A stretch of 64,000 nt of DNA from Puccinia triticina. Its lineage: Eukaryota > Basidiomycota > Pucciniomycetes > Pucciniales > Pucciniaceae. The notes under the pieces are model-generated. The model ran no database searches. It was not told the DNA's origin and saw only the letters and a program-made list of their open reading frames with translations. Positions within the stretch are counted from its first letter, which is position 1; each line of letters starts with the position of its first letter. The stretch covers positions 868,001-932,000 of the forward strand of contig NC_070573.1 of NCBI RefSeq assembly GCF_026914185.1. Direction: 5' to 3'. Both the position numbers and the translations under genes were made by a program. This document shows positions 22,522 through 44,679 of the stretch, piece after piece.

Positions 22522-23898
22522 TTAGTAGTGATTTTGTCGAAGACTGTAGTCGCCTTCGAGGTATCGACGGCCCCAGTGTTGAAAAAGGGCGACGCGTTCA
22601 AGATGGTCAAATTCGCTAGTGGATGGGCTTCGATTTGAGTAGGTAATAAAGCCCTCGACGAAGCTAGTATACATATGAAACAAGGTAGCGGGTTCGACAG
22701 CAGTGTGCGGCGGGGCTTGACCTACATCGCGGGTTAAGAGAGCTCCAATCTGATGCGGTTGTAAGAAAGGCAACTCAGTAATACTGTAGTCCCCACGATG
22801 GATCGGGGACGGAATTCGTGGGAAATCCGGGTTACTATGGTGATCTTCACTAGCAACATCGTTATTTTCGGTATTCGACCTCGTATCGATAGGAACGACT
22901 TCAGGACTAGCGCGAATGTTGTTCGATACCGAAGGATCAACCTCGATGGGTTGCTGAAGATCGACGAGAGGAGCATGTTGACGATGGACGACGGGGTTTT
23001 GCATCCAAGATGCGGGGTCAGCCCAGCTATCATCGAAAACGACTCGGTTCGAGGATAAGTCCTGGCAAGCGAACTTGTCAGTCTTGAAGCCGTGGTATCA
23101 GGGAAAACAAAACAGTAGCTTACCGGAGATCGGAGAACATCCGTGGATGCGGCCTGATAAACCGGCGAGTTACCCGAGGGACGCCATCCAGGACTGCGAG
23201 GACGATATACAGGCGAAGCCAGGCCTGGCTCGGCCACTTCAGAAGATTCCGCAGGGAATGGTGTGGGAACCCGGAAGCGCGGGGGCGAACCAACCAACTC
23301 TGCTGGTATCGCGGGAGCACCTGCTATAAAGGAGCCACCATTCTGGGGGGGCTGATTTATGTTGGTTGGATCCAAAAGCTGTAAACATTTAGTCAGCCCA
23401 TACAGGATAATCAACAACAAACACAAGTCAGCTGCTTACGGTCTCCAGGGTGTTAATCGCGGAATCACCCACGACAAACGGACGACGAGCCGCCGGGGAC
23501 TCGGAACGACGCATTGAGGAATCTATTGGGCGAGAATAGAAATCCATACGCTCCCTGGCCCATTCCATTCGATCGGGCGAGGAGGGCAAATGAGGCTCGA
23601 GCACATCATCAGACCCAGGCTAAACAAACTATCAGCATACACCCACCAGCAATGGGTCATCCTGAAGGCAGTCACTTACCAGTGATGACTGCACTAACAG
23701 ATGATGATTTGGCAGGTTTCTTGCGATCATGGTAGAACTTTGGGGTGGGGAAGTACCCTAGATGAAGAACAAATAAAAACTTTTCAATTTAGCTCGATCA
23801 AGGAGCTCTTCAAACGTCAAACTCACTCGATTTGCCGCGGAAGTCGTCCGAGGGCGTAAGCTATAAGGATACGAAGCTCGTCTAGAAGGGGAAATCAT
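22522..23898 (-). CDS. Antisense five-exon gene in element B, unknown function
   Basis: Predicted exons on the minus strand are 23898-23827, 23757-23680, 23619-23440, 23378-23124 and 23061-22522. All use GT...AG borders (GTGAGT, GTAAGT, GTAAGC donors), all introns are phase 0, and the joined frame stays open for about 374 residues from ATG (MISPSRRASYPYS) to a stop at 22522. The first two thirds are rich in Arg, Ser and Pro; the last 100 residues look folded (LPFLQPHQIGALL, FHMYTSFVEGFITY, RVALFQ). A TATAAAAGG lies about 80 nt upstream. Element C carries a homologue with three matching exon borders. It runs convergently with pol. I recognise no family. It is not an evident Env: there is no signal peptide or membrane segment. 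Confidence 0.72.
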
Positions 23899-23975
23899 CT
23901 TTGCTATAGGAAGTAATGAAGAGGACAAGGGGATAAAGGTGATGAGATGCTCTAAAAACGAAAGCGAATGAGCCT

Positions 23976-23984
23976 CCTTTTATA
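23976..23984 (-). promoter_or_regulatory. TATA-like box for the B antisense gene
   Basis: TATAAAAGG on the minus strand lies 78-86 nt upstream of the predicted ATG at 23898. C has TATAGAAAAGG at nearly the same distance. Confidence 0.5.
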
Positions 23985-24690
23985 TTCTCCAGGAGGGCAG
24001 GCACTCCGGTCTATACCCCGCGATGGCAAGGAACTCACCAGCCTGGCTTGGAAGAAAATAGGAGGCCTTGCCTATCAACCAGCTCCTTCGACTACGACTC
24101 GCCGAGGTATCGCCGAGGTAAATGGACCAAACGCATCGCCGATGATATCGGGCATGATCCAAACAACCCGGCCTGGCCATGTCAGCCAGAAGGGTCTATT
24201 CAGATGGCTCAGTTGGGTGCACATATCCGGCTGAGTCATGACAAACGAGGAACGAATATGACGTACCTTGGTGGTGCTATCGGCACCGGCTATTCAGATC
24301 GACAGCGGCAGAAGAAACCGGAGGCCGTTTCCATATATAAACAACTCGGCTTCAGATGCTGGACCAAGCACAACGGCCGAGTCTGACAGACGGAGGCGGC
24401 GGTATGCGGTTGGCGAAGTCAGCAGTTGAGTCGAAATATCGATGGCGGCGGGTGGTTGAATAGAGGTGACTGAGTTACCTCGCCGCCGAGGTAACCCCAC
24501 CTCCGGTCGGATCGGAACCAAACACGAAGCTGCGGCGCAAACCGAGAGGCCTGAGCTCTGAACTCGGACGAGCCGGACGGGTAACGGGCCCCCGATTGCT
24601 ACTCAACACCAAGGCCGCGCGGATCAAAGCCCGCGCACTACACAAAGCCCAGCGCGACTGCTGCGGCCCCTACGACTGCACAACGACCGC
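23985..24690. other. B region upstream of the antisense gene
   Basis: GC-rich sequence with several CGCCGAGGT-type repeats (for example CGCCGAGGTATCGCCGAGGTAA near 24101) and no convincing open frame. It probably serves as 3' untranslated sequence of gag-pol RNA and promoter region of the antisense gene. Confidence 0.4.
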
Positions 24691-24720
24691 TCAGCTGCGC
24701 AGCTGCGGACTGCGCGCAGC
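24691..24720. promoter_or_regulatory. Conserved GC box before the B 3' LTR
   Basis: GCAGCTGCGGACTGCGCGCAG within this segment recurs (with A/G changes and a short duplication) in C at 42041-42080. The distance to the 3' LTR is about 250 nt in both. Role unknown. Confidence 0.5.
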
Positions 24721-24938
24721 CCTCTGACTCACCAACATGACAGGACTTTTTTTTTCAAGTAAAAATACCAAAAAGTGACAAAAGTCAATTTTGGCCAATT
24801 TTTATTATACAGAGCTTCTCAGCCCGCGGGATCAAGAAGACATCTGGCGGCCAACTTTTCAAGGATTCTGGACAAACCACATATATACATATCAACCTCC
24901 AAGCTTAAATCTTCAAGATACGCCTTCTTCACGGCGGA

Positions 24939-24958
24939 ATTGTCTGGGGACAGACAAT
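24939..24958 (+). other. Hairpin beside the B polypurine tract
   Basis: ATTGTCTG and CAGACAAT form a perfect 8-bp stem with loop GGGA, two nucleotides before GTTGGGGGAGGA. The same stem is in element C. Confidence 0.65.
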
Positions 24959-24960
24959 AA

Positions 24961-24972
24961 GTTGGGGGAGGA
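24961..24972 (+). other. B polypurine tract
   Basis: GTTGGGGGAGGA directly precedes the TG of the 3' LTR, the expected site of plus-strand priming. Confidence 0.85.
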
Positions 24973-25754
24973 TGTGGTACTCGAAAATGTGAAAAATCAA
25001 AAGTTTTTCTCATGTACATATAGAAGGCCTCAAGATACCATCCATTGGACACCTTAAATGGACACCACGGCTAAAGTAACCCCTATTCCCCACTGGAAGC
25101 ATCACTGGAGCCCCACTACACTGGAAGTTAGACCCTTTGGACAACCTGTAGCACCCAGTCAACCACCTGTCAGGCGCCTCAAGCCACATTCCTCGCACCA
25201 TTCTATCTCCACTACATATATTGGTTTGGGTTTGTTTGTTATGTACATGACATCATGCAGCACTGCCCCTGCAGGCTGTGCCCCTTCAACTGAATGGTTC
25301 CCCGCATTCTAGTTCCTTCTAAACTCCACTTTGTTTGGTCTTATTACATCACCTGATCCTTCCCTGCACAGCTTATGCACCCCTTGCATAAATTATGACA
25401 TCATCTGGCACAGCCCCTCCTCATGTATGCACCCCTTGCATAAATTGTACACAGCCACTCCCTCTTAACTCCCTCATGTTGTACAGCCCAGGCCAGCTAA
25501 AATACCTCACTCAGGGGCTGCCCTGGAGCCAAAATCCCTCACATTTGTCTATATAAGGAGCTCTCTCTCCCCCCATTTGTAGTTCCTCAGTTTATTACTG
25601 ATCAAGTTTTATACTCACCCATCACCCAAAACACTTACGTACCCACTCAACCCTCTTACTTACATATAACAACTCTTACATACTGAATAACAACCTTTTT
25701 TATACTGTGTCACGAGAAAATTATCTTGAGCTAACCACTCCTATCACTTATTAA

Positions 25755-25785
<31 letters not shown>

Positions 25786-25875
25786 AGCTGGTAGTATAGA
25801 AGGGCAGAGCTTGCACCTCCTTCATCCCCTTCTCCATTCAGCAAAAGGGTTTCACAACCACTTTTGAGTCTTACA
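24973..25875 (+). repeat. B 3' LTR
   Basis: 903 bp, apparently identical to the 5' LTR and followed by GCGT, the target duplication. Confidence 0.95.
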
Positions 25876-26640
25876 GCGTGGACCTCTAAATTCTGGAAAT
25901 CATTGATGGACCGGTTGAAAATTAAATTCCACATGACGACCGCCTTCCACCCACAGGCGGATGGCCGGAGCGAAAGGACCAACAAGACTGTGGGTCAGAT
26001 CCTGCAAACGTTCACCGCAAAGAAGCAAGGAAAGTGGCTCGAATCTCTCCCCGCAGTCGAATTCGCCATCAACTTGGCTCTGAATGTTGCCACGGGTTTC
26101 AGCCCCTTCGAGCTCCTTTTCGGCAGAAAGCCACAACTATTCCCATCGGCAGCTGCGTGTCTCGAATCACTGCCACCCTTAGACAAATGGTTGAAACAAC
26201 GCGAAGGAGCCTGGGCGGACGCGAGAGACGCTCTCTGGACTAGCCGCGTCCGACAGGCAATTCAACACAACAAACACCGAAGCAACCACCCGGGACTAGC
26301 CCCGGACGACTGGGCCCTTCTCAACTCCGCCGACTGGCGCGGAAAACACAGAGGAGGGGTCGACAAACTCAAGGAACGTTTCGAGGGTCCTTACCGAGTG
26401 TTGAAGGTTTTCAACAAGGGACTGAGCGTGGAACTGGACCTCCCGGAGGACGACAAACGACACCCAACCTTCCACATCTCCAAGATCAAGCGGTACAACT
26501 TCCCCGACGAGGACTCTTCCCCGACACCCCCCAACCCAAGTTCTTCCATAGGGGGGGAGACTGCGAGCCCGCGCGCGCCTTCGCGGGTTCACAAACCAAT
26601 CACAAGAAGATCACACAATTCAAGTCGGGCGACTACCTAG
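25876..26640 (+). pseudogene. pol: A2 pol, last part: integrase core end and C-terminus
   Basis: The integrase frame of A2 resumes in phase once B and one GCGT are removed (...DKAWTSKFW). It contains the third catalytic residue in PQADGRSERTNK, the helical VEFAINLALN region, and a C-terminal domain (FEGPYRVLKVFNKG ... HPTFHISKIKRY) typical of Ty3/gypsy integrases. The frame runs through the polypurine tract and ends inside the 3' LTR. No further stop occurs here. Confidence 0.88.
26550..26561 (+). other. A2 polypurine tract
   Basis: AGGGGGGGAGAC abuts the 3' LTR and is the same as the tract of A1. Confidence 0.8.
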
Positions 26641-26931
26641 TCTCGTCACCTCCTCCTCCTTCCTAGCTCAGTAGAGATAAAGTGCTGATTCTTCTACTGA
26701 GCTAGGTAAGCTTTCCTTTCATTTCTTCCTCCTCCATTTCTCATCATCATCAATTGTACGAGTGGAGATAAAGTGCTGATTCTTCTACTGAGCTAGGAAT
26801 ACATATTGTTGGGTTCTAGAAAATCTCTCCAAGACATTGGTCTTGTCTTGAGCCCTCCCTTTCTTGATCCATTTGGTGGATCCCCTGTCTGCAACCCAGA
26901 GCTGAGTGAAGAGTCATCTCAGACTCTTACA
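26562..26931 (+). repeat. A2 3' LTR
   Basis: 370 bp ending CTTACA, followed by ATATT. Differs from the 5' LTR only in one short cluster. Confidence 0.95.
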
Positions 26932-28005
26932 ATATTGGGGCTCAGAAGGGGCTCACTCGCTTACAATTTCATATCATACTATCATATCTACATGTTTAGC
27001 ATAGCCCCCACCGCTCATGACTGTTTCAGGATAATCCGCCTCACTACCATCACGATCGCCGTAGGGACTATTACTACGAGGGGGTCTTCGTATGGGGGGA
27101 CCGGTGCGACTACGGCTGGTGGGGGAGCCAGAGACGCTGACGTTGCGGGCCTAGTTAGTCATCCGGTCTTCAGAAGGTCCACCACGAGAGGGATAAGGCT
27201 CGTTGGGATCTTCATAGTCTTTGGAAGATTCCGTTCCGGCGGAGCCTCGTGCGCGGGAGCCGTGCCGTGGCCGATCATCAGGCTCGCGCTGTTCAGCCAT
27301 CGTCGCCAGTCTCCCCCCCCGCCCGGGATCCCGAGCTGGGTGTGGCGCTCTGATTGAGCCGGGTAGGATTGACTGACGCCGTGTTCTCGCTAGGTCGACG
27401 TCGAAGGTCGTTGGAAGGCGCCGGCCGACCACTGACCGTACCTTCGATCCGCGCTGTTGTCGTGCCCCGTCGGACGATCCCAGATGGGCCAGGAGGACTG
27501 CCGGGCATGAGCATAGATCTGACGGGCCCCGTGCTTGTCTTTGCTGCCGCTCGCACCAAGCCTGTGAAGCCCACAAACGTCTCCGACGCATCCGTCGCAG
27601 CAAACAGCTTTGCATGTCCTAAATTTTTCTTCGAGGAAAGGTTCTTCACCTTGCTTGACGCTGGCCGGTACAGGACTCCGACTGGAATCAAGAACACTGT
27701 GTAGCCCTCCGCCCGGTCTGCTATCGCATCATCTATGACCGCATGCTCCGCCGTCTGCTTCTCCTTACGTGTCTCCTGAAGGTCTATCATACCTTCCGCC
27801 TTGGCTCCCTGACAGCGCAATCAAGTGATCAGGAAATTTGCTTGAGCGGCGGGGGAGCAGGAAAGACAAACCATCAGAGCGTCTTCAAAGTCTTTGACGG
27901 CTTCCTCGTACATGCCGAGAAGAAAGTTGCTGACCCCGCACTAGAAGTAAGCGACTGCGAGATGTTGATCGAGACTGGTGGCCGTCATGAAGTTCTTGAT
28001 AGCCA
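26932..28005 (-). pseudogene. noxR: NoxR (p67phox-like) pseudogene, downstream part
   Basis: NoxR activates fungal NADPH oxidases through N-terminal TPR repeats and an activation domain. On the minus strand the TPR segment (SLDQHLAVAYF, then CGVSNFLLGMYEEAVKDFEDAL) is followed by a 63-bp GTTTGT...CAG intron (27871-27809) and by an activation-domain-like segment (HAVIDDAIADRAEGYTVF, IPVGVLYRP). A Ser/Arg/Pro-rich linker follows down to 26932. Defects: TAG after AYF (where Gln is expected), another TAG near 27151, a shift at a run of C (about 27308), and an absent segment between DAL and the activation domain. A2 interrupts the 3' end and G the 5' end. Recognition rests on family knowledge without a search. 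Confidence 0.72.
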
Positions 28006-28008
28006 CCT

Positions 28009-28550
28009 TATAAGATCAGAAGTCTTTGATGAGATGAGGCACGGTTAGACACAAGCAAGAAGCGGTGGCAAACGGGCAGAGGCGAAGCAAACCTTTGATT
28101 AGATGAGGCACGGTTAGACACAAGCAAGAAGCGGTGGCAAACGGGCAGAGGCGAAGCAAACCTGAAGACGGAAGTCAAGGGTGAGCAGAGTTTTTGAGCG
28201 AACAGTAGTTGAGTGTTGGATTTCTTATGCAGACCTTTGATGAGATGAGGCACGGTTAGACACAAGCAAGAAGCGGTGGCAAACGGGCAGAGGCGAAGCA
28301 AACCTAACAAACAGCATAAGATGAGACAGGAGACTGATGAGACGAGAAAAGATAGAAAACGGACCTGAAGACGGAAGTCAAGGGTGAGCAGAGTTTTTGA
28401 GCAAACAGTAGTTGAGTGTTAAAGAAACAAATGAATGGAAATGAAAACAGGCTTTAACAAGGCAACTAGGTTAGATCAGAAACTGCGGCGGAATACATGT
28501 GAGAGTATAACTAGTGACATGTAGTAGAAAACCCGTGAAACCGTCTAATA
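28009..28550 (-). repeat. G 3' LTR
   Basis: 542 bp, starting TATTAGACGG and ending CTTATA on the minus strand. It contains three copies of a 71-bp module (CCTTTGATGAGATGAGG ... GCAAACC), two in tandem and one further on. Confidence 0.88.
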
Positions 28551-28579
28551 CCCCCCCACACGTTCTAGCTTTGAACGTC

Positions 28580-31500
28580 CTATAATTTCATCTTGAAGTA
28601 GTTGATCATAGCGTGGTGTTTCGGGCTGGCGAGGGATTTGGATAAGCCATTGGCAGGCATTTCCGAGGTGGCGATGTAACTGATTTCAACCCACTTCTTG
28701 GCTACAGCCTCTTGAACGAAGTGATACTTGATGTCGATGTGTTTGCTGCGTTGGTGGATGATGGGGTTGTTGGAGAGTGCGATCAAGGCTTGATTGTCGC
28801 AGAAAACTGACATGGGATGAGGGTAAACCACGTTGAGAGATTTAAGAAGAGAGTTTAGCCAAATAGACTCCTGAATTCCCGCGTACAGCGCGCGGTACTC
28901 CGCTTTGGTAGTAGAAGACGCCACCAAAGATTGCTTCTTTGTCTTCCAGGAGATGATGGAATCGCCCCAAGTCACGAGGTAACCAGTGTAAGAGCGACGA
29001 GAATCGACGCAGTTGGCCCAATCGGCATCGCAGAACACCCTAAGTTTGCCGTCACCACCTCCGATACGAAGAGACAAAGATTTAGTCGATGACAGATAGC
29101 AAAGGAGATGCTTGAAGGCAGTCCAGTGTTTGATGCCTGGACGCTCGAGATGTTGAGAGAGTTGGGAAACCGCAAATGAGATGTCCGGACGGGTGGCGCA
29201 AGAGATGTAATTGACGGATCCTATGGCCCGACGATAGTTCACGTTTAAAGAGAGGAACTCGTCGACTTCTTGTTGAGTGGCTTCAACCAAACAAGTGTTC
29301 GGGACCATTGGAGTGGAGACCGATCTCGCGTTAGCGAAATCATATTCAGAGAGTAATTCCTCGATGTGTCGTTCCTGACACAGAGTCAAGTGGTCCGAGT
29401 GTTGAGTGATCTTCATCCCGAGCAGAGAGCTTGCCGAGCCCAAGTCGTCCATGAGGAAGTGATTCTTGATTAGATTCTTGAATCTTGCCGAGTCGTGGCT
29501 TATGATCACCATGTCGTCCACCTATACGTGAACGAAGCACGTCCAACCCAACACTTGCGACACGAAAAGACAAGGATCTGCAGGAGAGGGAGCGAAGTCG
29601 ATGGAGGTGAAAAACTTGCACAGTTCACCATACCATACTCGGGGGGCCTGTTTCAAACCATAGATTGACTTCTTCAGCCTGAGGCAGTGACCGGCCGGGA
29701 TAGAAAGTCCAGCAGGGCATCTAAGATGAATTACCTCATCAAGCTTTCCATTTAAGAAGGCGTTGCGAACATCCATTTGTTCGATGTCCATCCCTTCATT
29801 GATGCCGACAGTGAGAGCGACCCAAAGAGCGGAAGGCCTGCCCGTAGGAGCATACGTTTCATTGAAGTCGATTCCTTCAGTTTGGGCGCTGCCCTGCGCG
29901 CACAATTGAGCCTTGTATTTGACCAGGTTACCGTTGGCGTCATACTTCTTGCGAAAGATCCAAACAGTGCCAAGGAGAGAAACATCTTCGGGAGTTGGCA
30001 CCACATCCCAGAAATTGAGACGAGTCATTGCCTCGAGCTTGGCGTCCACAGCCTCCTGCCAACGGTCAGCTTCCAGAGAAGCCATAGCAGCCCGGTAAGT
30101 TTTCGGAACCGAGTGAAGAGGGGTGGATTGGGCAGTAGACATAGCAAAGATAGCGTCGTAGAAAGGGATTGATGAGATTGAGGAGTGAGTAAGATGAGCT
30201 CGTCGCTTAGAAGACAAGATGTTGGCGGTGTCTATGTCGGAGGATATGTTCTTTGGTGGGGGAATATCGGCTGGCACATACGTGTACCCCGGCTTGCTCC
30301 GATCGGACAGTGATGACACTGCGGCTGGAGGTTCCGGCTGCGCAGCTTCAGGCGCAGAACCATCTTCCACTTTAATACCACTTAGGTCAGACATTCCCAA
30401 ATTCGGATCTTCAAGCGGATCAAGGAATTCCTTGTCTTGTTGTCGGATATCCTCCGGGTGCACAACTTCCGGATTGGTCCATTCCTCCTCCTCGAGATCG
30501 CTTAATGGGTCAGCAGGGGAACACGGGGAGATTCCTGGAAATTTTTTCTCGTCAAATATGACATCATGACTGTACTCGACCCGGTTCCCCGAAGTGAGTA
30601 TCCTCCAGTTGTGGATACCCTGCCGATATCCCACTAACACACCTGTTTTAGCTGTGTCGCCGAATTTTCCTTGTCGTCGTTCTTTTGGGATGTTGATATA
30701 AGCTTGACAACCAAAGGTACGGAGGCGTGACAGATTGAATTGAGATCCGTGCCACAGTTGATGAGGTGTAGACCACTTCAGCCTTCGCATCGGGGTGATG
30801 TTCTCATAGAGAACTGCGGTGTTTACTGCTTCCCCCCACAACAAAGCTGGCAGATTGGCATGTTTGAGCATAGACCTGGCCTTCTCGCTGGTGGTACGAT
30901 TTCCGCGTTCCGCAATGGAGTTTTGCTGCGGGGTGTAGGGGGCCGTGACGTGATGGATTATCCCTTTTTCCTTGAAGTACAATTCAAATTCATTGGAGCA
31001 AAATTCTCCTCCACCGTTGGTAACAACATTGATGATAGTTGAGTTGTGAAAATTTGTAACTTCATTGACGTAATGTGAAAATTTTTCAAACGCTTGAGAT
31101 TTGGCAGACAGTATATACACATGTTTATAGGAAGAATAGGCATCTGTTATTTTAAAATAGTAGAGACCGCCTCCAATTGTCGGAGGAGTAATTTTTCCAC
31201 TCAAATCCATGTACAAAAAATCCAGTGTACGCTTAGGAGCCGGGAGAGTGCCGGAAAAAGGAAGGCGGGTGGATTTGGATAGTCGACACGAGTCACACGA
31301 CATTGTTGAATAGTCAACACCGTACATGATTTTCAGAGCTTCTGAGCTAGGATGACCGGCTCGCCTGTGAAGTAAAGCCGCGTCAGCAGTTGACTCTTGA
31401 GTTGATTTTGACGCAATTGACTGACCTGTTGGAGAGACGATTTGGGAATCAATGGAAAAGATTTGGCTTTCAATCGTGCCGTTGAAAAGCCAGTCCCCGT

Positions 31501-32632
31501 TAGACTGGTCCACTATGGAGAAATCACAGTTTCCCTTTCGAATGATATTGCAATGGGCTAGAAACAAGCGACCGAAGCTGACCAGTGCGTGAGACAAGTC
31601 AGGAACGTGCAGAGCATTGAAATGATAAATCTTCCCGCTTGAGTTCTTGAGTTTGATGGTGCCTGAACCGATGATTGGAAGGCTCTTGCCATCTGCGATC
31701 GCGACTGAAGACGAGTACGACTCGTAGTTGAAAAAGTCATCTCGGTTGGGGAACAAATGATCGGAACAGCCACTGTCTAGGAAGATCACGTTGCTTGATC
31801 TCGACGCTGCATTTGCAGAATGTTGAGCAAAGCAGTGATAGGCTTTTGGTTCATCACTATCGGCTGAAGAAGCGAGATTAGCTTTCTTCTTCTTGTCCTT
31901 CGGATACCCGTGCAATTGATAGCACTGTGCTTCAGTGTGTTGAGCCCTATGATTGTGTTTGCCCTTCTTGCACAAGTAGGGATTGGTCGACGCCTTCATT
32001 GCCGATTCGGTTTTGATGACTGGTTGAGAAGGGACGTTGTCCGTGTCTAGAATTTTTGACTCGAGTTGAGTTCTGACGATTTTGAGAGTCAAAGGTCTCT
32101 TGGTGAAGATGATGTCCTTCGTGTTGTCGTAGGAAGTTGGGATCTTGCTCATGATGATCTCGGCAAGGTGATTTTCATTGACAGTTGGCTCGGTCGGGAG
32201 AGGAACTCTGATAGACATTCCAACAGCTCGCATGTTGGCTATTCCGGTATCAACCGCGACCATATACTTGCCAAGGTTGCCACCGAAGGGGATCTTCAAG
32301 AAATTTTGATACACTTTAGATTGATTTTGAGTTGTTTTTGCTTCAAAGTGATTGCACAAGAGCTTCCACAATATGTGGGGTTCCTGCTTGTTATCTTCAG
32401 TGACGAACAGAGCTCTGTTGTCGGAGCCCATGTAGCGAACAAGAACGCCGGCAGCGATGTGCTTACGATCAGTCCACAGCTCGATTTTGTCTTTGGGAGC
32501 TGTTGCGGCCTTGTTGGTGGACAGGTATGCGGAACAAGATTTTTCTGCGCAGTAGGAGTGGATAATGGCTTTCCAGTCTTTGAAATTCGAGTCGGTGAGG
32601 ACCGGAAGACTGGACTGATGTTGATCTGACAT
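28580..32632 (-). pseudogene. gag-pol: G Gag-Pol polyprotein with one amber codon
   Basis: One frame of about 1350 codons from ATG 32632. In order: UBN2-type gag, a CCHC-like motif near residue 225-240, protease (FLDSGCSDHLF), integrase HHCC (HRRAGH ... CDSCRLSK), integrase core, reverse transcriptase, RNase H ending near 28580. Two defects stand out. TAG at 29522-29524 (codon 1037) replaces the Tyr of the YVDD catalytic motif. In the integrase core, AAC at 31018-31016 (codon 539) puts Asn where element F has the catalytic Asp (TNGGGEF against FDGGGEF). All other frame is open, so inactivation is recent. Confidence 0.9.
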
Positions 32633-32693
32633 GGCGAGGCAGTTGACAGAGAAGAAGCTTGTGATTTGATATTCCAGACGCTATACGCGATCT

Positions 32694-32704
32694 GGGCTCA
32701 TAAC
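32694..32704 (-). other. G primer-binding site, initiator tRNA half
   Basis: The plus strand reads GGGCTCATAAC, the anticodon stem-loop sequence of eukaryotic initiator tRNA-Met. The element strand is thus complementary to an internal tRNA segment, as in Drosophila copia, which is primed by a cleaved tRNA half. Confidence 0.7.
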
Positions 32705-32705
32705 C

Positions 32706-33247
32706 TATAAGACCAGAAGTCTTTGATGAGATGAGGCACGGTTAGACACAAGCAAGAAGCGGTGGCAAACGGGCAGAGGCGAAGCAAACCTTTGATGAGA
32801 TGAGGCACGGTTAGACACAAGCAAGAAGCGGTGGCAAACGGGCAGAGGCGAAGCAAACCTGAAGACGGAAGTCAAGGGTGAGCAGAGTTTTTGAGCAAAC
32901 AGTAGTTGAGTGTTGGATTTCTTATGCAGACCTTTGATGAGATGAGGCACGGTTAGACACAAGCAAGAAGCGGTGGCAAACGGGCAGAGGCGAAGCAAAC
33001 CTAACAAACAGCATAAGATGAGACAGGAGACTGATGAGACGAGAAAAGATAGAAAACGGACCTGAAGACGGAAGTCAAGGGTGAGCAGAGTTTTTGAGCA
33101 AACAGTAGTTGAGTGTTAAAGAAACAAATGAATGGAAATGAAAACAGGCTTTAACAAGGCAACTAGGTTAGATCAGAAACTGCGGCGGAATACATGTGAG
33201 AGTATAACTAGTGACATGTAGTAGAAAACCCGTGAAACCGTCTAATA
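32706..33247 (-). repeat. G 5' LTR
   Basis: 542 bp with the same 71-bp modules as the 3' LTR. Followed on the right by AGCCACCT, the target duplication. Confidence 0.88.
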
Positions 33248-33322
33248 AGCCACCTCATGTTCACCCAAGGTGGCATAGATCAGGCCGATGTTGAAGAGGA
33301 TCTTGGAGCAATCTGTGATGTC
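33248..33322 (-). pseudogene. noxR: NoxR pseudogene, upstream exon piece
   Basis: The minus strand reads DITDCSKILFNIGLIYATLGEHEVA and joins the TPR segment at 28005 when G is removed. A 3' splice site (TAAAATAG) precedes it at 33323. The first exon is not recognisable between here and F. Confidence 0.72.
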
Positions 33323-34382: not shown

Positions 34383-34393
34383 CCCTCCCTTGC

Positions 34394-35108: not shown

Positions 35109-35227
35109 CTTTTTTTTTCTATATAAAGATCATTTTTTCACTCGTTCCAAGCCCGCAACGCCATTGGAAGCTCCGAATTGTCTTTGAAATATCCTTGTGG
35201 TCTTTGGAAAGTCTTCATTGTCAACCG

Positions 35228-35392
35228 CCTCATCCTCGTTGGACTCGGAAGCTCTTCATCATCGGGACAACCTCATCCTCGCTGGACTCGGAGGCATTCA
35301 TTTCGGAATAGCCTCATCCTTGTAGGACTCGGAGGCTCCTCATTTTCGGAACAGCTTCATCCTTGTGGACTCGGAGACGCTTCATCAATTGA
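35228..35392 (+). repeat. Minisatellite in E, about four 41-43 bp units
   Basis: CCTCATCCTCGTTGGACTCGG-like units start at 35228, 35271, 35312 and 35355. Confidence 0.8.
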
Positions 35393-36683
35393 ACGGACAC
35401 ATCCTTGACCAACAACTTGAACTCAATCTCGCCAGTCATTGATCTCTTGGCCCTTTGCCTGGATTCCTTCCACACCCTCGGCCCCTTGGACTCTTTCTCG
35501 ATCTCTTGGGCACCCAGCCTCTACACCATCACCTTGCAACCTTGAATTCGCTCTCGCCCCTCGCCCTTGCCCTTGCCCTCGCCCTCAACTCCACCGAGAC
35601 CTCAGACTTGCCGGACATGCCGCTAAGGACCACAAACGCTTGCCGGCCCCTCCGATCCAAAAGGTCCGACAACCAATCAGTCGCCAGCCTCATCTCCCCT
35701 GTCGAACTCGCTGTCTCCTCCACCCCGCGCCAAACCTCGCTCGTCTCCCGCTCCTCATCCCGCACTACTGCAACCACCACCACCTCGCCCTTCCTCATCC
35801 GCCACCACCGCTCCAGCTCCGCCCAGCCCAGCCTCGCCCTCACCCTCGAGCTGCTTCTTCCCTCGCCCCTTCGCCGCCGAACTCTTTTCTTGCCTCGCGC
35901 CTGCTCCTCTGCCCGTCCGCGCCAGTTCGCCATTGCCAATGGCTCCTCCAAAGACCTCGCCCCTCTCGCCGCAACCCCGGATGAACGACAGCAAAGATCT
36001 ATTGATCGCCCCGCCAGCCCACCTCCCTGCTCCCTCTTTGCCTGCCCCTGCTCGCTTCTCTCCTCGATCCCAAAGCCCCTCATCGTCGCCTCCAGCCCAT
36101 CGTCATCGCTTCTATCCTCCCATCGCTGCCGTCTCTAGCCCCTCACATTACTCGACTTCAGCCCCTCATCCTTGCGCGTAGTCTCTCGACGTCATCATAC
36201 TCGTCCTCAGCCCTCGTCATCGTCTCTGGCCTCCCTTTTAATCGCCTCTAGCCCCTGGTCATCCCTTGCATCCCCTTCGTCGTCGCCTCTTGCCCCTCAT
36301 CTTCCCTTCTGGTCCCTTGTTATTGCACCTAGCCCTCTCTACCTGAAGATCATTGCCCCTACATTTTAACAACACTCCATCCTGCCCAGCCTCTATCAAT
36401 TAAATAACTCTCAAAAGCTTTGGAATCAACATCCTCCACCCACCATCCTGCAAGCAAATCTCAACATGGATGTCCCTTCGACTCAACAAACAATTCTCGG
36501 TTCTTCGGTATTGACCCTCGAACAAATCCTTTGCAAACGGACGATCCTTCAGGTTGAGAGCACGATGGACTCGGGGTGGAATTGAGGAAATCAGATCACT
36601 CTTAAGAGGAAGTTTTATTGATTTATAGCTGGTGTAACTGGGTTGTTTTTTTTCCTTCTTTTCCTTTTCCCCCTTTTTTTTAT
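35393..36683 (+). other. E interior, Pro/Ser-rich frames without a recognisable domain
   Basis: A 227-codon frame at 35455-36138 and overlapping frames are rich in Ser, Pro, Leu and His because the DNA is C/T-rich. No gag, knuckle or protease motif is seen. A short peptide cannot be excluded. Confidence 0.35.
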
Positions 36684-36695
36684 AGGAGGGGAGAC
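36684..36695 (+). other. E polypurine tract
   Basis: AGGAGGGGAGAC abuts the 3' LTR, like the A1 and A2 tracts. Confidence 0.75.
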
Positions 36696-36960
36696 TGTAA
36701 GGGTTTCTCCCTTACTGAAACAGAAGTCAAGCTAGATGCATATATGCATATGCATATACATTGTAGGATTCTCTATATAAGCTTGTAGTACTTGACTGCT
36801 CTCATCCTCTCTTCTTCCCCAAGCTGGTCTTCACCTCGAGGTTCCCCTTTCCATCCCTTCTCACGACTCATTAGTGAAATATCATTCTTTTATATAGACT
36901 CCTGGCCTTTGGCCCTCCGTCCCACCGACCCTTCCAGTGAGGGTTCACTGAACCCTTACA
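36696..36960 (+). repeat. E 3' LTR
   Basis: 265 bp, followed by the TCGAC duplication. Confidence 0.93.
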
Positions 36961-39620
36961 TCGACGTCAGAGTAAACTTTGATTTTATTGATTTCTGAGC
37001 GTCCATCCAAGAGAATTCCATGATTACGAGTGCCGGAAAGATAGCGAAGTAGGTGGACAATCGCCCTCCAGTGCGTGATCCCAGGAGATTCAAGATGCTG
37101 AGATAGTTGAGAAATTGTGAAAGTGATGTCCGGACGCGTGCATACTGCCAAGTACATGAGCATTCCAACAGACCTTTGGTAGTTTGCACAAATTCTTTCA
37201 AACTGTTGTTGTTCAAAAGGTGTTGACTTGATCAGCTGAGTGTTTGAGATCATTGGACAGGATACCGGCTTGACTTCAGACATGTTGTGGTCTGCCAGAA
37301 TTTTTACAAGATACGCCTCCTGCGACAGGTACATTTGCTTTTCACCTATGCAAGAGACCTTGACCCCAAGGAGATGCCGTAATTCACCGATGTCGTCCAT
37401 CTTGAAACAAGCCGATATGAGCTTTTTGAATCTTTCAACGTCAGGACTTACAATGACCATGTCATCCACATAGACATGGACAAAGCAAACCCACAACTGA
37501 GAGTTGCTGATGAATAAACATGGGTTGGCAGGGGACGGATGAAAGTTTATTGACTTGAAGAAACTAGACAGTGCCGAGTACCAGACTCGCGGAGCTTGAC
37601 GGAAACCATAAAAAGCTTTCTTGAGCCGGAGGCAATGACCAGCAGGCACCAAAAGACCAGCCGGAGCATGAAGATAAACTTCTTCCTTGAGTTCACCATT
37701 CAGGAACGCGTTCTTTGTGTCCATCTGATGAATTTGATAACCTCGAGACAGCCCAACCGAGACAACTGTGCGGAGTGCAGAAAAACGACCAGTGGGAGCG
37801 TAGGTGTGAAGGATATCCTCCACAGCTTGGAGAGATCCCTGAGCACACAAGCGAGCTTTAAATTTAGAGACCGCTCCATCTTCGTCGAGCTTCTTCCAAA
37901 AAACCCAGAGAGTGCCCAGAAGTTGGTGGTCACTGGGGATTCTTACAACTTTCCACACACCCAAATCGGCCATTGCTGAGAGTTCCTTGTTGATTGCCTC
38001 ACGCCATTCATTTGATTCACCGGAGGCCATTGCTTGGTTGTAAGTTTGTGGCACTCCCACAGAGACGTAGGCTACCGCATGGATGTCAAAGTCCTGGTCC
38101 AGATGATTGAGCATGAATCCATCAAACCTGTCCAGAATACATAAGTTTGCCCTCCTACGATGCTCCAGAATGTTTGAAGTGTCTATCGCAGACGATATGT
38201 CCTTCGGGGCTTTGTCCGGCGCAAGAACCATCTCCCAGCCGGGCTTCGGCTTTGTTGGGACTCTGCCAGCTGTAGGATTTGAAGCTACGGGAGCAGGTTG
38301 CTGAACTTCTTGATCCTCAGCTCGAATTTGCGGATCTGCTTGCAATTAATTGTTTGACTTCTTGGGACTCACTAGTATGAATTAGCGGGGATTCCTCAAG
38401 CTCCTGGAACTCCGTTGGATCCTGTGGGTCGACTATTCCTGAGGGATCAGCTGGGGAGAAAAGGGAGACTCCTGGGAAGTCTGCTTTGTCAGAAGAGACA
38501 TCATGGCAGCGCTCAACCTTTCCTCCCGGAAGTAGAATGCGCCAGTTATGCATTCCCAGCTGATACCCCACCATCAGGCCCCTTTTTGCCGTGTCACCAA
38601 ATTTTCTATCCCTAAGCTTCTTGGGAATATTGACGTAAGCCTTGCAGCCAAACGGTCGAAGACGCGACATGTCAAATTGAGAGTCAAACCATAGCTCGTA
38701 TGGAGTTTTCCATTTGAGCTTGCGAACAGGCGTGATGTTTTCGAGAAAAACGGCTGTGCTGACAGCTTCACCCCAGTAGACGGCAGGGAGATTTGCTTGC
38801 TTGAGCATCACCCGGGCCTTCTCGCTGGTAGTTCAATTACCTCGCTCTGCCACCGCGTTCTGCTGAGGTGTATACGGGGCCGTTACATGGATTGTGACTC
38901 CCTTCGACTTAAGGAACTCAGTGAACTCGGTTGAATTAAATTCCCCTCCTCCGTCAAACACGACCGACTTGATTGGGCAACCATGAAACGTTGTGACATT
39001 GTTGTAATATTCCACAAATTTTGAGAAGGTTTGAGATTTGGCAGAAAGGATAAAGACATGACAATAACGCGTGAACCAATTGGTGAGTTTAAAGTAATAG
39101 CAACCGCCTCCACAAGAAGCCGGAGTAATTTTTCCACTAAGATCCATATGAACTGATTCAAGTGGATGATTTGCCGGAGGAAGTTGAGAAGGGAATACAA
39201 GAAAATGGGATTTAGACAAGGAACAAGAGTTGCATTTGATTTTCGGTGATTTTATCCCAAACATTCGCCTCAATGCCTCATTACTGCAGTGACCGGCGCG
39301 TCTGTGGAGAAATTCGTCGTCAGTGATCATCGATGCTAGCGCCAAAGCGGGAGAGGACTGACCTTCGAGAGTGGTATTTAATTGAACCATGCAAGTGCCG
39401 CTGACGATTACAGTCTTGAAGATGACTTCGCCTTCACGAGTTATGACAAATGAAGACAAGCCTGATCTTTTGAGTTCGCAGCCTCGTTCTAGGAGTCGTC
39501 CAAGACTGATGAGAGTAGCACTTAAGCCAGGAACATGCAAGGACTTCAACGGGATCACTGTCTTGTTTTTGGCGATGACGTTGACGAAGCCGCTTCCTTG
39601 AACCTCAAGAGTGTGTCCGT
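36961..39620 (-). pseudogene. pol: F polyprotein: protease end, integrase, reverse transcriptase
   Basis: Resumes from the D insertion with ...ANG|HTLEVQGSGF. Integrase has HRRAGHCSNEA, NSCSLSKSH, the core motifs MDLSGKI and FDGGGEFNS, and PQQNAVAERGN. Reverse transcriptase follows with WKVVRIPSDHQLLGTLWVF and an intact YVDDMVIVS. Defects are TGA at 38833-38835 in place of the Arg codon after ERGN, and a frameshift between about 38317 and 38345, in the linker before reverse transcriptase. E interrupts the frame at 36961. Confidence 0.88.
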
Positions 39621-40534
39621 TGTGGAACTCCGACCGGTGCTGGGCCGTCGGCAGTTACTGGAAGGGAATGTTGCGCTGTGCGCTGCCTTCGCGGTGGTCC
39701 GGGGGAGATTCTAGAATTCGAGAGATAGCGGAATTTTTGGGGGGGGGGGGGGGATTTTGGTTTGAGACGACGAGAGGTAGATTCCCGTCGGCGGTGGTTT
39801 GTTTGTTGAGAATCTGGGGAAAAACCGGCGAACTGGACCGGGGAACAGTGATCTTAAGAAGAGGAATCTGGAAAAGGATCGGCGCGGGGCTGAGAGGAGA
39901 AACTCAGAAGCTCCGCAAGTATATCGGTGAACAAGGATCAATAAACTTTTAGATTCAAGTTGATGAGATGATCTGACAAAGAAATTTTTTTGGTTCAGAC
40001 GAAATCCCATGCCGCCCCATCGTCTGAGTTCGAACTGAACTCAGACTCCGGGGACTGCGACATGCTGCGGACAAGTCATCATACACCCGCGCGCACAAGC
40101 GCGCAACAACAACCAAGAGAAATAGGAGGAAAGAAAACAAACGCAGAAGTAAGGAAAACACAGTGATATGAGGCAGAAGGAAATAAACTACGAGCAAAGA
40201 AAAGAAGAGGGTAAACAGAACACACAGACCAGAACAAACAGAGAGAACAACAAAAAACAAAACAAAACAAAAAGAAACAGTGGATAAAAACAGAGAGATA
40301 AACCCACAGCAGGCGCTGTGTTAGGACCAAGAAAGGTGAAGAAATCTGGGGAACTGAGAGGGAGTAGGAATGAAAGGCTGATAATCTTGAAGATCTTGAA
40401 GGGAAGTTGATTTATTGAAGCTTGGAAAACCAGGGAGAAGCTTGAGTCTTGATGATCTTGCGGTCACTGCGCCTGGAATAGGGAAATGATTGAAAACTAG
40501 GCGCGCCGCTGGCACCACGAGATTGATCACCACA
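39621..40534 (-). repeat. D 3' LTR
   Basis: 914 bp, TGTGGTGATC at its minus-strand start and TTCCACA at its end. Preceded on the element strand by a purine-rich GTGGAGGAGA tract (40535-40545). Confidence 0.93.
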
Positions 40535-40693
40535 TCTCCTCCACAATTGCAGTCTGTCCCTAGACTGCGCGCGCTGCGCCGCGGACGAGAACAAGAGAGT
40601 TGAAAGGGAAGCAGGGATTCGATGATTGGACCTGGAGGACGGAAAGAAAATGGGGGGGGAAGAGAGGAAGAGAGAAGGAAGGAATCCGAGACC
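40535..40693 (-). other. D region between the last intron cassette and the 3' LTR
   Basis: If the 40812-40694 cassette is spliced, the pol frame continues here in phase (KVSDSFLLSS ...) for about 50 residues to the LTR. A CAGTCT/AGACTG stem and a CGCGCGCTGCGCCGCGG box lie just before the polypurine tract, reminiscent of the hairpin and GC box of B and C. Confidence 0.45.
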
Positions 40694-40812
40694 CTAAAGG
40701 AAAAAAAAAACAAATGGCCACCACGGCGAGGCTCACGAGTGTGGCTGGAGTAGGGTTTTCGACACGTGACGGTAGTAACTACCCGGAGATGCATACCAGG
40801 AGAGGAACTTAC
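40694..40812 (-). other. D intron-like cassette 1 (end of pol)
   Basis: 119 nt from GTAAGT to CCTTTAG on the minus strand. Shares GCATCTCC and GCCACACTCGTGAGCC with the other three cassettes. If not spliced, pol ends at the TAA formed at its donor (40809-40811). Confidence 0.65.
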
Positions 40813-40865
40813 TTCTGGTCAGGAAAGTCCTCGCGCGAATAAAACCTCTTAACCTGATCGGCCGC
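40809..40865 (-). CDS. pol: D pol, final piece beyond the C insertion
   Basis: After removal of C and one CCGC, the pol frame continues ...RRFAADQVKRFYSRE and reaches TAA at 40809-40811, unless the cassette here is spliced. The segment matches the AASHIKRFYPRG end of the B and C Pol proteins. Confidence 0.8.
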   Translation of the reverse strand, partial: AADQVKRFYSREDFPDQK

Positions 40866-40955
40866 TGTAAGACTCAAAAGTGTTCCTGAGAACCTTTTGC
40901 TGAATGGAGAAGGGGATGATGGAGGTGCAAACTCTGCCCTTCTATACTATCAGAT

Positions 40956-40987
<32 letters not shown>

Positions 40988-41790
40988 TTAATGAAGTGAT
41001 AGGGTTGGTTGGTTCAAGATGAGCTTGTTGATGACACTGAATAAATTGTTGTTATTGTTAATGTAAGGGTTGTTATGTAGGTTGTTTAAGTATATATATA
41101 AGGCTGAACTGTAAATGTTGGGGTGACTGTGATTGGTGAGTAATGAACTGAGGAGCTGACAACTGGGGAGGAGGGAGCTCCTTATATAGACAAAAGTGGA
41201 GCCCCAGAGGGCTTGTGGGTTAGGGTTTTGACTAATCTAGACAACAGTGTGAGGGATTTTAGCTGGTGGGAGTAGATACAAATGATGTCATAATGTGTCA
41301 GGGGTACATAAATGATGTCATAAGAATGCAGTAGGGCCACATGAAGGCTGCGTAAAGTGACAGTAGACTGCATGAGTTGACAGGTGGATGCAGGGGGTGC
41401 ATAAATGAAGTCTGAGGCTGCAGAGTCAGTGTGTGATGACATCATAATATGGAAATAGAAGAGTACTTGATAATATGTAATGACTGCAGTCTGATGGGGA
41501 GATGTATGTTTGTATCCTGTGATTTGTATAAGCATAATGCTGTGATCCTTGAATTGAGGCTGGTGACAGGCTGGTGACTGGGTATGTTGAACGTGTGATG
41601 GGTGTCCAGTGTCCAAAGAAGTGTAGGTTCCAATCCAGCGGGGTTCAGGTGATGCTTTCAGTGGTGACTAGGGGTAAAATTGGCCGTAGAATCCATTTCT
41701 GAGGTCTGTTTGATGGTATCTTGAGGCGTATTGTGAGTAAATATATGTATGCGAAAAAACTTTTGATTTTTCACTTTTCCGTCTACCACA
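40866..41790 (-). repeat. C 3' LTR
   Basis: 925 bp, minus-strand start TGTGGTAGACGG, end GAGTCTTACA. Related to but clearly diverged from the B LTR. Confidence 0.95.
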
Positions 41791-41802
41791 TCCTCCCCCA
41801 AC
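41791..41802 (-). other. C polypurine tract
   Basis: GTTGGGGGAGGA on the minus strand, identical to that of B. Confidence 0.85.
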
Positions 41803-41804
41803 TT

Positions 41805-41824
41805 ATTGTCTGTCCCCAGACAAT
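41805..41824 (-). other. Hairpin beside the C polypurine tract
   Basis: The ATTGTCTG/CAGACAAT stem of B is conserved here with the same loop and spacing. Confidence 0.65.
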
Positions 41825-42040
41825 TCCACCGGAAAAGTGCCGTATCTTGAATTTTGGAAGCTTGAGGCTTGAGTTTTTTACTGGGTGACATGAAGAATCC
41901 TTGGGAATTTGGCCGTTGGACGTCTTCTGGGTACTGTGTCAGAGAGGCTGGGTGGGGTGAATTTTGGTCAAAAATTCAACTTTTGTCGTTTTTCTGACTT
42001 TTCTTGAAGGGAAATTTTTAAGGTGTCTGGGAGTCGAAGT

Positions 42041-42080
42041 GCTGCGCGCAGTCCGCAGTCCGCAGTTGCGCAGTTGCGCA
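42041..42080. promoter_or_regulatory. Conserved GC box before the C 3' LTR
   Basis: CTGCGCGCAGTCCGCAGTCCGCAGTTGCGCAGTT-like sequence, the complement of the B box at 24691-24720, about 250 nt from the LTR. The surrounding 41825-42960 holds no convincing gene. Confidence 0.5.
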
Positions 42081-42961
42081 ATGGTGCTGCTTGTGCTATG
42101 GTGGCGGCCGCAGCTGCTGCTCCAGCGCCTCAGGGTGCGCGCTGTCGAGGCCGCGGGCCTCAAGTGTCGAGTAGTGATCGGGGACTCGTACCCGTTCTTG
42201 ATGGTTGACTGATCGGGCTTTGGGCCCGGGTACTTAGTGTTGGTCGTACCCGTCCAATAGCTATCCCGACCCCGCATTCGGGTCTCGAGTGTGTATGTGT
42301 GTCGGTCGTACCCCCTTCGGGGGTATGGCTTATTCAGGAGTTCAAGGCGTATGGGTTTGGGGTTCAAGACCCATACACAACTTCGCCGACCTTCCGATTC
42401 CCTCGGATACATCACCGCCGCCAATGGTCAACCGCCGCCGTCGAGGTCTTGCACCATCCAAGCCTGCAGCTAAACTGAACCCTGCTAGTGAGCAGGGTTC
42501 ATTTTCGAAGTAAGTGCGTTCGTGTTCTTCCTCGACAGCTGAGTGGCCGTTACGTTGGCTGATGCAGCCGTCAGATTTATTACCAGCCCCACTCGCACCA
42601 CCGAATCTGACAGGTCTTCGGGGTTTCTGATTGGGCTGCCTTCGCCGGCAAGGTTGGTTTCCAGCCGGCGATCTCATAGCGGCCGGCCCTAAGACGGTAA
42701 GACTAATTGCCGCATTCTTTCCGCTTCCTACAACAGCCGGCTTCTCATAGCGGCCGTGGGTTTGAGTACGTATCGTTCCGGAGGGAGAGATGGCCCCGCA
42801 CGCCGTCCGGCTCGACTCTATCTGGGGTTCCTATTCGGTCGAGTCGAACGATCCAACCTCTAGTTACCAATGGTCTGTGGCCTCCGTTCAGAGCCCGCGC
42901 ATGGGGCAAAAGGACTACGGGTCCTTAAGTCCCTATGAGTCCTCACAGAATCCGAGGTGAG

Positions 42962-42972
42962 TATAGAAAAGG
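42962..42972 (+). promoter_or_regulatory. TATA-like box for the C antisense gene
   Basis: TATAGAAAAGG lies 75-85 nt upstream of the predicted ATG at 43047. Confidence 0.45.
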
Positions 42973-43046
42973 TTCCCCTCGCCTCCTCCCACCTCATCAT
43001 CCTCCCCAGTACTACTTTTCTAGGCTTATTACTTTCGTCTGCTACC

Positions 43047-44679
43047 ATGTCCAACAGACCCTACTATCGTACCTACTTTTCCCCGTCCCCTTACCCGTTA
43101 CGAGCCCGCGGGGCCTCTGCTAGCGCTTCAACTCGAGTGCGTCCATTTTGTTCCTCATACCAGTAGCTTGCCGTCCTGTCGCACTGCTGACCCGTGTTGG
43201 TTGTTCTGCTACTAGCCAGGTTCCTCTGTACACAACCCTATCCTTATCATGGACGGGCCTATGTACAGAGGCGGGGTGATTCGTCCTTCATGGTTCCAAT
43301 GGTCCCGCCAGCGTTTGGAAGCGTTCAACCGCCCCAATCGACCTCGAACCCGAGTCAATCGCTCAGCTGATGGCCCGGCTTCTCCGGATCATCGGCCTTT
43401 TGTCGTTGCCGGATCGGCGATGGCCCAAGTGGCTTCGGTGAGTTGTATATCCGGACCGCTGTAAGCTATCCGATCCGATACTGACTCCATTCTTCGGTTA
43501 CTTCAGATTATCGCATCCAGTGATCGTCCGGATTCCCCGTCCGAACTCCGGACCCCGTCGCCCTCCCCGTCGCGGGTTCCCCCCGGGTTGGTGGGCCTCC
43601 ACCCCCGCTTTCAGGGTGCGGATGCAGCCAGTCCCGGCCAGGCGTCTCCAGTATACCAACCTCGCCTCCCGGGTGAGAGATCGCATCCCAACTCGCCCGT
43701 TTATCGACCCGCTTCCGACGAAGCCGACAATCCAGTGAGTCAATCTTTCTCTTCCCTTTTTTTCCATGCGAGTTCCTGACCACCGATCTTCGCCACACAG
43801 TTCTTAGTATCCAACCGAGTTGTCATAGGCGACGAGTGGCTGGTACCGGCTGCTCCTCGTCCCAGCAACCTCACTTCGCCGGCTATCAGCTGTCGAAACT
43901 CGATCGCAGATTCGTCCGAGTACGGGTCTCATTCCTCGGCCGAGTATGGGGATCGTTCCCAGGGTTCGGGTGCGTCAGGCTCATCTCAATCCGGGGAAGC
44001 TACTGCCGAGACCGATCGCGCCGATGATGGGATGGACCTCCTTATTGAGTGGTCGGGTGGTGTACGTCCTTCTCCTTACTCTATCACCTGCTTCTTACCC
44101 GGCCGCTCATTACTTTCTGCACCTCCTGAACAGGTCCCTCCACCCCCTGAGTGGGATGATACGTGGACCACCTTACCCGACTGGCTTAACCAGCCCGCGC
44201 CTACTGGTAACGAGCCCAACGGTCATCAACCCATCGAGGTTGATGCCGTTGATCCTGAAGGTGGTGCCGATGCCGACGGCGTTGATGATGCCGATGGTGA
44301 TGCCGATGGTGAGGCCGATGCCGATGGTGTCACCGAGACTGATCTGGCGGACGACGTCAGCATGAGTAGCATTTCTCGTGCTTCCACCCCCTCCATCATT
44401 GGTCAACCCCCGATCGAGGATTACCCCTTCTTAAGCGACCTCCAAGTCCAAGCTCTCCTGGAGCCCCATCGTCCCTTAGCTATCAAGCATCGTGCTTGTT
44501 TCGCAATCGACTCCGAGGCCTATACTAGGCTCTATCACACTTTTGCTCGAGCCTTCGTACCCTACTGCCAGCAGATTCCCAACGAGGTCGTCAACGGTCG
44601 AATCCAGCGAGTTCACATCTTCCAGGTCGTATCCGAAGAGTTTCGATCTACCATGCGTCAAGCTGGCTACGATGACTAG
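43047..44679 (+). CDS. Antisense five-exon gene in element C, unknown function
   Basis: Predicted exons are 43047-43136, 43216-43437, 43507-43734, 43801-44061 and 44134-44679. Every exon length is a multiple of three, all introns are phase 0 with GT...AG ends, and the joined frame encodes about 448 residues (MSNRPYYRTYFSPS to RQAGYDD). Similar segments in the same order occur in B: PLRARGASASASTR, RPFVVAGSAM, GQASPVYQPRLPGERSHPNS, VSNRVVIGDEW and the C-terminal YPFLSDLQVQALL ... RVHIFQ block. An acidic Asp/Gly/Ala tract (DADGVDDADGDADGEAD) is specific to C. The fourth intron is absent from B, and B has one extra small exon near its start. Function unknown. Confidence 0.75.

Follow-up and report, generated by a model that had tools for sequence, protein, structure and literature searches.

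Antisense additional open reading frames (ORFs) between pol and the 3' long terminal repeat (LTR), the class termed aORF-3R, have been described in plants and in the Botrytis element Boty, according to passages of PMC7264820. In Grande (GENE23), RIRE2 and Retand (TRP28) such ORFs are conserved in most family copies, and passages of the same sources describe for Grande a promoter of its own, experimentally shown, and a nuclear protein (PMC7264820, PMC11963269). Boty-like elements of Botrytis cinerea are Ty3/gypsy elements of a plant-pathogenic fungus and carry the antisense gene brtn (PMC7264820, in part), and HBZ of human T-cell leukaemia virus type 1 (HTLV-1) is a spliced antisense retroelement gene that encodes a regulator (PMC11963269, in part). 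Extra antisense genes of LTR retrotransposons have long been on record with no known function. Here we describe a predicted five-exon gene that lies opposite to pol, between pol and the 3' LTR, in each of two Ty3-like elements, B and C, of the rust fungus Puccinia triticina. Both elements lie in a 64,000-nucleotide (nt) stretch of contig NC_070573.1 (assembly GCF_026914185.1, positions 868,001 to 932,000), referred to as the window. Comparisons among copies show a predicted coding, intron-bearing and selected antisense gene of the element, with position and orientation kept over several groups.

Like brtn, the rust gene is antisense, additional to gag and pol, and situated between pol and the 3' LTR of an element of a plant-pathogenic fungus; the two hosts belong to different phyla. 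No Botrytis protein was among the listed matches to the antisense proteins, in searches that need shared exact words and in which brtn was not compared directly. Place and orientation are those of the Grande, RIRE2 and Retand ORFs. Unlike Retand, the rust protein has no Transposase_28 (TRP28) domain, as no Pfam match exceeded threshold; unlike Grande and Retand, the rust gene has four introns, the word "intron" being absent from the passages of PMC7264820 and PMC11963269 drawn on here. A four-intron gene that recombines separately from pol sets the rust elements apart from Grande, Retand and Boty as described, while the spliced type of antisense gene is shared with HBZ. Two papers on rust transposable elements (PMC10977897, PMC12210899) do not use "antisense" in the main text as searched by passages, and the literature searched, which included few subscription papers, held no report of this gene in rusts, nor of any fungal element with a multi-intron antisense gene.

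Exon structure, copies and selection

In B the gene is on the minus strand, with an ATG at 23898 and exons at 23827..23898, 23680..23757, 23440..23619, 23124..23378 and 22522..23061, the last including the stop codon; the predicted protein has 374 residues. In C it is on the plus strand, with an ATG at 43047 and exons at 43047..43136, 43216..43437, 43507..43734, 43801..44061 and 44134..44679 (again including the stop), for 448 residues. All eight introns are GT-AG, phase-0 and 60-79 nt long. Three borders coincide (B introns 1, 3 and 4 equal C introns 1, 2 and 3, respectively), and B intron 2 and C intron 4 have no counterpart in the other gene. A preliminary description of the window, made from its letters alone, had given the coordinates, strands, five exons, phase-0 introns and protein lengths exactly, and the three coinciding borders correctly. 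It had also proposed aligning the two proteins, and these match at E=8e-19 in BLASTP (56/154 identical, 36%).

When introns may be placed freely, long frames can arise by chance, and the structure might be a prediction artefact of element DNA. We therefore took the longest spliced frame, with up to four introns, from each gene region and from 100 dinucleotide-shuffled versions of it. The shuffle maximum was 187 codons in B against 374 observed, and 319 in C against 472 observed, the latter being above the 448 residues of the model since the free search takes a somewhat longer path. None of the 100 shuffles reached the observed frame in either region, and the strand opposite to the antisense gene offered spliced frames of just 86-89 codons. 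A deposited, independent gene model of a C-like copy (P0001) gives the same splice junctions as C. Stronger evidence than the shuffles is that many other copies carry this gene with these same introns. With a ratio of nonsynonymous to synonymous divergence (dN/dS) below 1 and independent annotations besides, a chance spliced ORF was rejected, and we regard an artefact as scarcely conceivable.

Searches of the P. triticina genome (122,823,596 bases in 18 contigs) used each antisense protein as the query, and places were counted by hand from rows reaching the C-terminal exon, with B and C included. One protein search gave at least 38 such places and the other at least 41 different ones, a total of at least 79. 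A piece of the most distant group, used as the query, added at least 21 more distant places at 34-45% identity. The context of these was judged by proximity to an internal hairpin and polypurine-tract (PPT) module (described below), which lay at most 1 kb away in 16 of the 21, the two lists being compared by hand. We fetched 52 distinct places, after dropping 13 + 4 + 2 other loci as second matches on the same places. The antisense gene was opposite to pol in all 40 copies in which pol was detected; in the other 12, pol was not within the fetched stretch. In fetched copies besides B and C, position was checked on the pol side only. The group names C2, C3, C4, B2, B2' and B3 are working labels drawn from identity, not from a tree. 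Of the features that define aORF-3R, location between pol and the 3' LTR is thus found in B and C and orientation opposite to gag-pol in 40/40 copies with pol, and conservation and coding constraint are found as judged on gene-carrying copies. Some hundred copies, in several groups of graded divergence within a single gapless fungal genome, make constraint, splicing and recombination measurable.

Splice signals were aligned in 26 copies (17 C-like and 9 B-like, including B and C). GT-AG was kept in 26/26 copies at intron 1, 25/26 at intron 2, 24/26 at intron 3 and 20/26 at intron 4, and the ATG in 24/26. A deletion spanning the intron-4 acceptor is common to six C-like copies (L006-L010 and L012), five of which still have, according to a spliced aligner, an open spliced frame without the deleted stretch. 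This aligner, restricted to phase-0 GT-AG introns, was applied to 16 loci (eight C-type, six B-type and two B3-type). Introns followed C residues 30, 104, 180 and 267 in 7/8 C-type loci (L066 being without the last), and B residues 24, 49-52, 110 and 195 in 5/6 B-type loci (L045 differing at the first). Intron positions were common within four C-type and three B-type groups, with extra, doubtful introns in L065, L066 and L071. A second run of the aligner, on 36 copies that were new or repeated, placed introns at the four homologous positions in 31. All 36 had introns and none was intronless. No internal stop was met in at most 21 of the 36, which is an upper figure because the aligner favours paths that avoid stops.

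The preliminary description had held that introns in an antisense gene survive retrotransposition and that absence of the exon structure from other family members would speak against the gene. The claim survived, and the first statement agrees with the retention of introns in 36/36 copies. The introns are kept because they lie on the strand opposite to the genomic RNA, and the case illustrates how a retrotransposon can carry a gene that has introns.

Exons were compared with those of B or C in 17 cases, 11 of them between separated copies. For C against L003, L005, L014, L015, L016 and L017, dN/dS was 0.37, 0.52, 0.35, 0.32, 0.48 and 0.46, respectively; for B against L035, L036, L037, L038 and L039 it was 0.24, 0.38, 0.28, 0.43 and 0.37. 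The range over these 11 comparisons (0.24-0.52) lies away from the value near 1 that the preliminary description had named as contrary to its claim, which thus held. Exons diverged less than introns in 9/11. Further pairs gave 0.25 at a synonymous divergence (dS) of 0.35 (L054 vs L051) and 0.43 (L061 vs L063), and saturated pairs gave ratios of nonsynonymous to silent differences per site (pN/pS) of 0.39-0.65, with bootstrap upper limits of at most 0.75. Between B and C themselves silent sites are saturated (pS 0.72 in the antisense gene, 0.73 in pol), with the proteins still alignable.

This constraint bears on whether the antisense RNA itself might be the functional product. Such an RNA would pair with the sense genomic RNA and trigger small-RNA silencing or block gag-pol, and antisense RNA regulation has been proposed for other elements (passages of PMC7264820). 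Codon-level constraint, conserved splice sites and a conserved ATG would all be needless for an RNA-only role, which we consider unlikely; RNA and protein functions could coexist.

Among the amino-acid differences of the deposited models P0001-P0004, CpG-to-TpG changes account for 2/3, 7/9, 12/23 and 13/35, against a background of 151 among 3024 possible single non-synonymous changes. Such decay of C-like copies is as expected of methylated repeats.

Putative promoter, predicted protein and possible role

TATA-like boxes precede both genes: TATAAA at 23979..23984 (minus strand) in B, 86 nt before the ATG and conserved in position in other groups, and TATAGAA at 42962..42968 (plus strand) in C, 85 nt before it. 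The preliminary description had noted both and put them at 75-86 nt; their presence stands, with the distances adjusted to -86 and -85. A box of this kind occurred 85-108 nt before the ATG in 9/9 Met-starting models from five groups, in a scan run without a shuffle control, which detracts from its weight. The conserved box is only suggestive of an own promoter. HBZ, a bZIP protein, is transcribed from a start in the 3' LTR; in the rust gene, by contrast, the first exon and TATA-like box are internal, about 1 kb from the LTR, and the protein gave no bZIP match.

The deposited NCBI models P0001-P0004 begin 257 nt upstream (MAPHAV...), with a first coding exon at 42790-42957. We rejected this start as less likely, and the exon is probably a misannotation, because the upstream stretch diverges between copies as introns do (10-13%, against 12-19% for introns and 3-4% for exons 1-5 in 5/6 such comparisons, with 12% in L016), because its supposed donor GAG/GTGAGT overlaps the TATA box, and because the ATG at 43047 is kept in other groups.

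Six antisense proteins were checked. They are acidic to nearly neutral, with isoelectric points of 4.8-5.9, 23-26% Ser+Pro and 11-18 SP/TP sites. Short conserved blocks of the antisense protein are PPGLVGLHPRF, SPVYxPRxPG, SNRVV and PIEVD. None of the six has a hydrophobic N-terminus, signal peptide or membrane span; the highest 19-residue hydropathy over all six was 1.40, with at most 0.63 within the first 40 residues. In AlphaFold2 models a C-terminal helix pair alone reached a predicted local distance difference test (pLDDT) score of 50-60. The antisense protein is probably an acidic, Ser/Pro-rich, disordered chain.

The place between pol and the 3' LTR is the usual one for env, and an envelope-like or secreted protein that interacts with the host was therefore worth weighing. 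An envelope-like gene would have sense orientation, a signal peptide and a transmembrane segment; the rust gene is antisense, its product has the low hydropathy just given and no Pfam match, and it is unlike a secreted effector or envelope protein because it has no hydrophobic N-terminus or membrane span. Both were rejected on the hydropathy profile, and we hold this alternative to be very improbable. The preliminary description had called the gene "host-interacting", and for the same reason this part of its interpretation was not borne out, whereas a spliced-type coding antisense gene under selection in a rust Ty3/gypsy lineage was upheld.

We lean instead towards an accessory third gene of a P. 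triticina Ty3-like lineage, transcribed from its own promoter, spliced in the nucleus and encoding a protein that works inside the cell in an accessory or regulatory role and can be made only from integrated copies; to judge from sequence, this is reasonably likely. RNA polymerase II would transcribe the gene from its internal promoter in the inserted DNA copy, and the four introns would be removed in the nucleus. The disordered chain, with its small helical C-terminus, would stay inside the fungal cell and might regulate the element in trans, at the level of transcription, particle assembly, entry into the nucleus or copy control. The protein could be obtained only from an integrated DNA copy because the genomic RNA is the opposite strand, neither spliceable there nor translatable into the protein. 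The regulatory role is the least certain step of this explanation. Rust genomes are dominated by such elements and, if the protein does regulate its element, they would offer a system for transposon self-control.

Several observations weigh against this account. No match above threshold came from sequence searches of Pfam and PDB, with one sub-threshold Pfam match, the AlphaFold2 models were unusable (mean pLDDT 30 and 37), and with these three resources we found no domain, fold or localisation signal for a regulatory role. The antisense protein diverges far faster than pol (37% identity between B and C over 179 columns, vs 84%). The B3-type loci L067 and L068 could not be fitted to the same exon structure, and 15 of the 36 spliced-aligned copies contain internal stops, as expected of dead copies. 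In the B-type copies L036 and L038 introns diverge by 3% and exons by 6%, contrary to simple exon constraint. Lastly, 6/17 comparisons (L002, L004, L013, L032, L033 and L034) gave dN/dS of 0.77-2.33; five of these are near-identical copies with few changes, and L013 is disturbed by an insertion.

The introns also raise the question of origin. Four spliceosomal introns in an element gene are most easily explained by host-gene capture, in which an ancestral element took up an intron-bearing rust gene in reverse, the product perhaps still doing a host-type job. Also in favour of capture, element D, a relative with 61% pol identity in the same window, is without the antisense gene. Against it, no place was recognised as a plain host gene among the own-genome matches listed (context being checked for the 52 fetched loci), and no homologue outside P. 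triticina, other rusts included, was among the matches listed from the protein collection, where searches reach only relatives sharing exact words. The ten annotated relatives among those matches are all from P. triticina and all "hypothetical", and viral and prokaryote contig collections gave no relatives. A captured gene still serving a host-type function seems to us possible, if doubtful; capture as an origin, one of two possibilities offered in the preliminary description, is plausible given the introns but unproven, and it is compatible with the accessory-gene account.

Polypurine-tract modules and recombination

In Sireviruses and Athila4/Calypso the region from pol to the 3' LTR holds extra PPT copies, and the terminal PPT has an inverted repeat; the Sirevirus repeat pairs with the LTR and is lacking at the upstream PPTs (passages of PMC2829016). 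The rust region likewise has multiple PPTs, but unlike in Sireviruses one internal PPT has its own hairpin, of different stem sequence. Both B and C contain exactly three copies of the motif AAGTTGGGGGAGG, one at the 3' LTR and two between pol and the antisense gene, against an expectation of 0.05 per window with one mismatch allowed. In B (plus strand) a first internal PPT-like copy lies at 21929..21941, 19 nt after the pol stop, an internal hairpin with a PPT-like copy (22206-22218) at 22188..22218, and the terminal hairpin and PPT (24959-24971, one base before the 3' LTR) at 24943..24971. In C (minus strand) the terminal PPT (41792-41804) and hairpin occupy 41792..41820, an internal PPT-like copy (44963-44975) and hairpin 44963..44994, and a PPT-like copy near the pol stop 45121..45133. 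The hairpin before the internal copy reads AGGTTG-RGGA-CAACCT and that before the terminal copy ATTGTCTG-GGGA-CAGACAAT, so that the stem differs and the loop is the same.

Exact copies of AAGTTGGGGGAGG were present in the pol-side spacer region of 43/52 loci, twice in 24 of them. Genome-wide we counted 69 internal modules (exact, GGGA loop) and 363 terminal modules (at most two mismatches); the reversed-pattern control for both gave zero. Element D has a related 3' end, with no extra PPT copies seen and no antisense gene. The antisense region may have become bracketed through duplication of the 3'-end module.

The histories of pol and the antisense gene differ. B and L035 have zero silent differences in 294 pol codons and an antisense dS of 0.25; silent divergence in pol and antisense gene, respectively, was 0.05 and 0.59 for B vs L037 and 0.02 and 0.07 for C vs L003. 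Over exons 1-3, L035 is B-like (1-5% difference); at 23200-23100 it differs from B by 32-39%, as L037 does, and from L037 by just 6-9%. Compared with window positions 21300-24600, L035 and L037 are mosaics, with pol nearly identical and the antisense parts and upstream region 30-50% different, and they have tracts in common within their mosaic antisense genes.

One tentative and rather unlikely reading of these patterns is that the antisense gene is an exchangeable regulator cassette, in which the flanking hairpin-PPT modules, one on the pol side and the other at the 3' LTR, would prime separate plus-strand segments in reverse transcription and so promote allele swapping between co-packaged elements. 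If so, fast divergence and exchange of alleles would decide which element families regulate or tolerate one another, in the manner of phage immunity cassettes.

Host elements and neighbouring features

Element B is a full-length Ty3-like element at 14232..25875 (plus strand; flanks inspected). Its LTRs (14232-15134 and 24973-25875) are 903 nt long and 100% identical to each other, and the target duplication GCGT stands at 14228-14231 and 25876-25879. It has a gag-protease ORF of 846 residues at 15735..18275 (Asp_protease_2, 1.2e-06; zinc knuckle weak) and a pol ORF of 1161 residues at 18425..21910 with reverse transcriptase (RT), RNase H and integrase, both on the plus strand. Element C, also full-length and Ty3-like, occupies 40866..52742 on the minus strand (flanks inspected), with LTRs of 925 nt (40866-41790 and 51818-52742) that are 99.89% identical and a CCGC duplication at 40862-40865 and 52743-52746. 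The ORF list and a domain search place its pol ORF (1178 residues) at 45164..48700 on the minus strand; the gag-protease region, on the same strand, is split into three ORFs (48727-49785, 49786-50649 and 50752-51210), vs one in B. B and C thus have the RT-RNase H-integrase order, LTRs, 4-bp target duplication and PPT of Ty3/gypsy elements.

Element D (39621-60102), a third Ty3-like element, has LTRs at 39621-40534 and 59193-60102 (98.9% identical) and the target duplication CCGT, and is split by the insertion of C at the end of D pol. A comparison within the window found no match to the antisense gene in D, whose stretch from the C insertion point, at the pol end, to the 3' LTR is 331 nt at most.

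Directly after the 5' LTR of B, at 15135-15165, is a stretch, AGGGAGTCCCCAACGTGATAGG, that is common to B and C at the same site. It is without an initial TGG, unlike tRNA-3'-end primer sites, and a search for self-priming of reverse transcription from the LTR found matches of 8-9 nt at most. Elsewhere in the window, a tandem array of units of about 173 nt (85-98% alike) lies at 1845-2769, beside a Pif1-helicase ORF at 115-1251. A further LTR-type element at 28005-33247, with direct repeats at 28005-28550 and 32703-33247 (99.3% identical), encloses minus-strand ORFs of 1036 and 313 residues.

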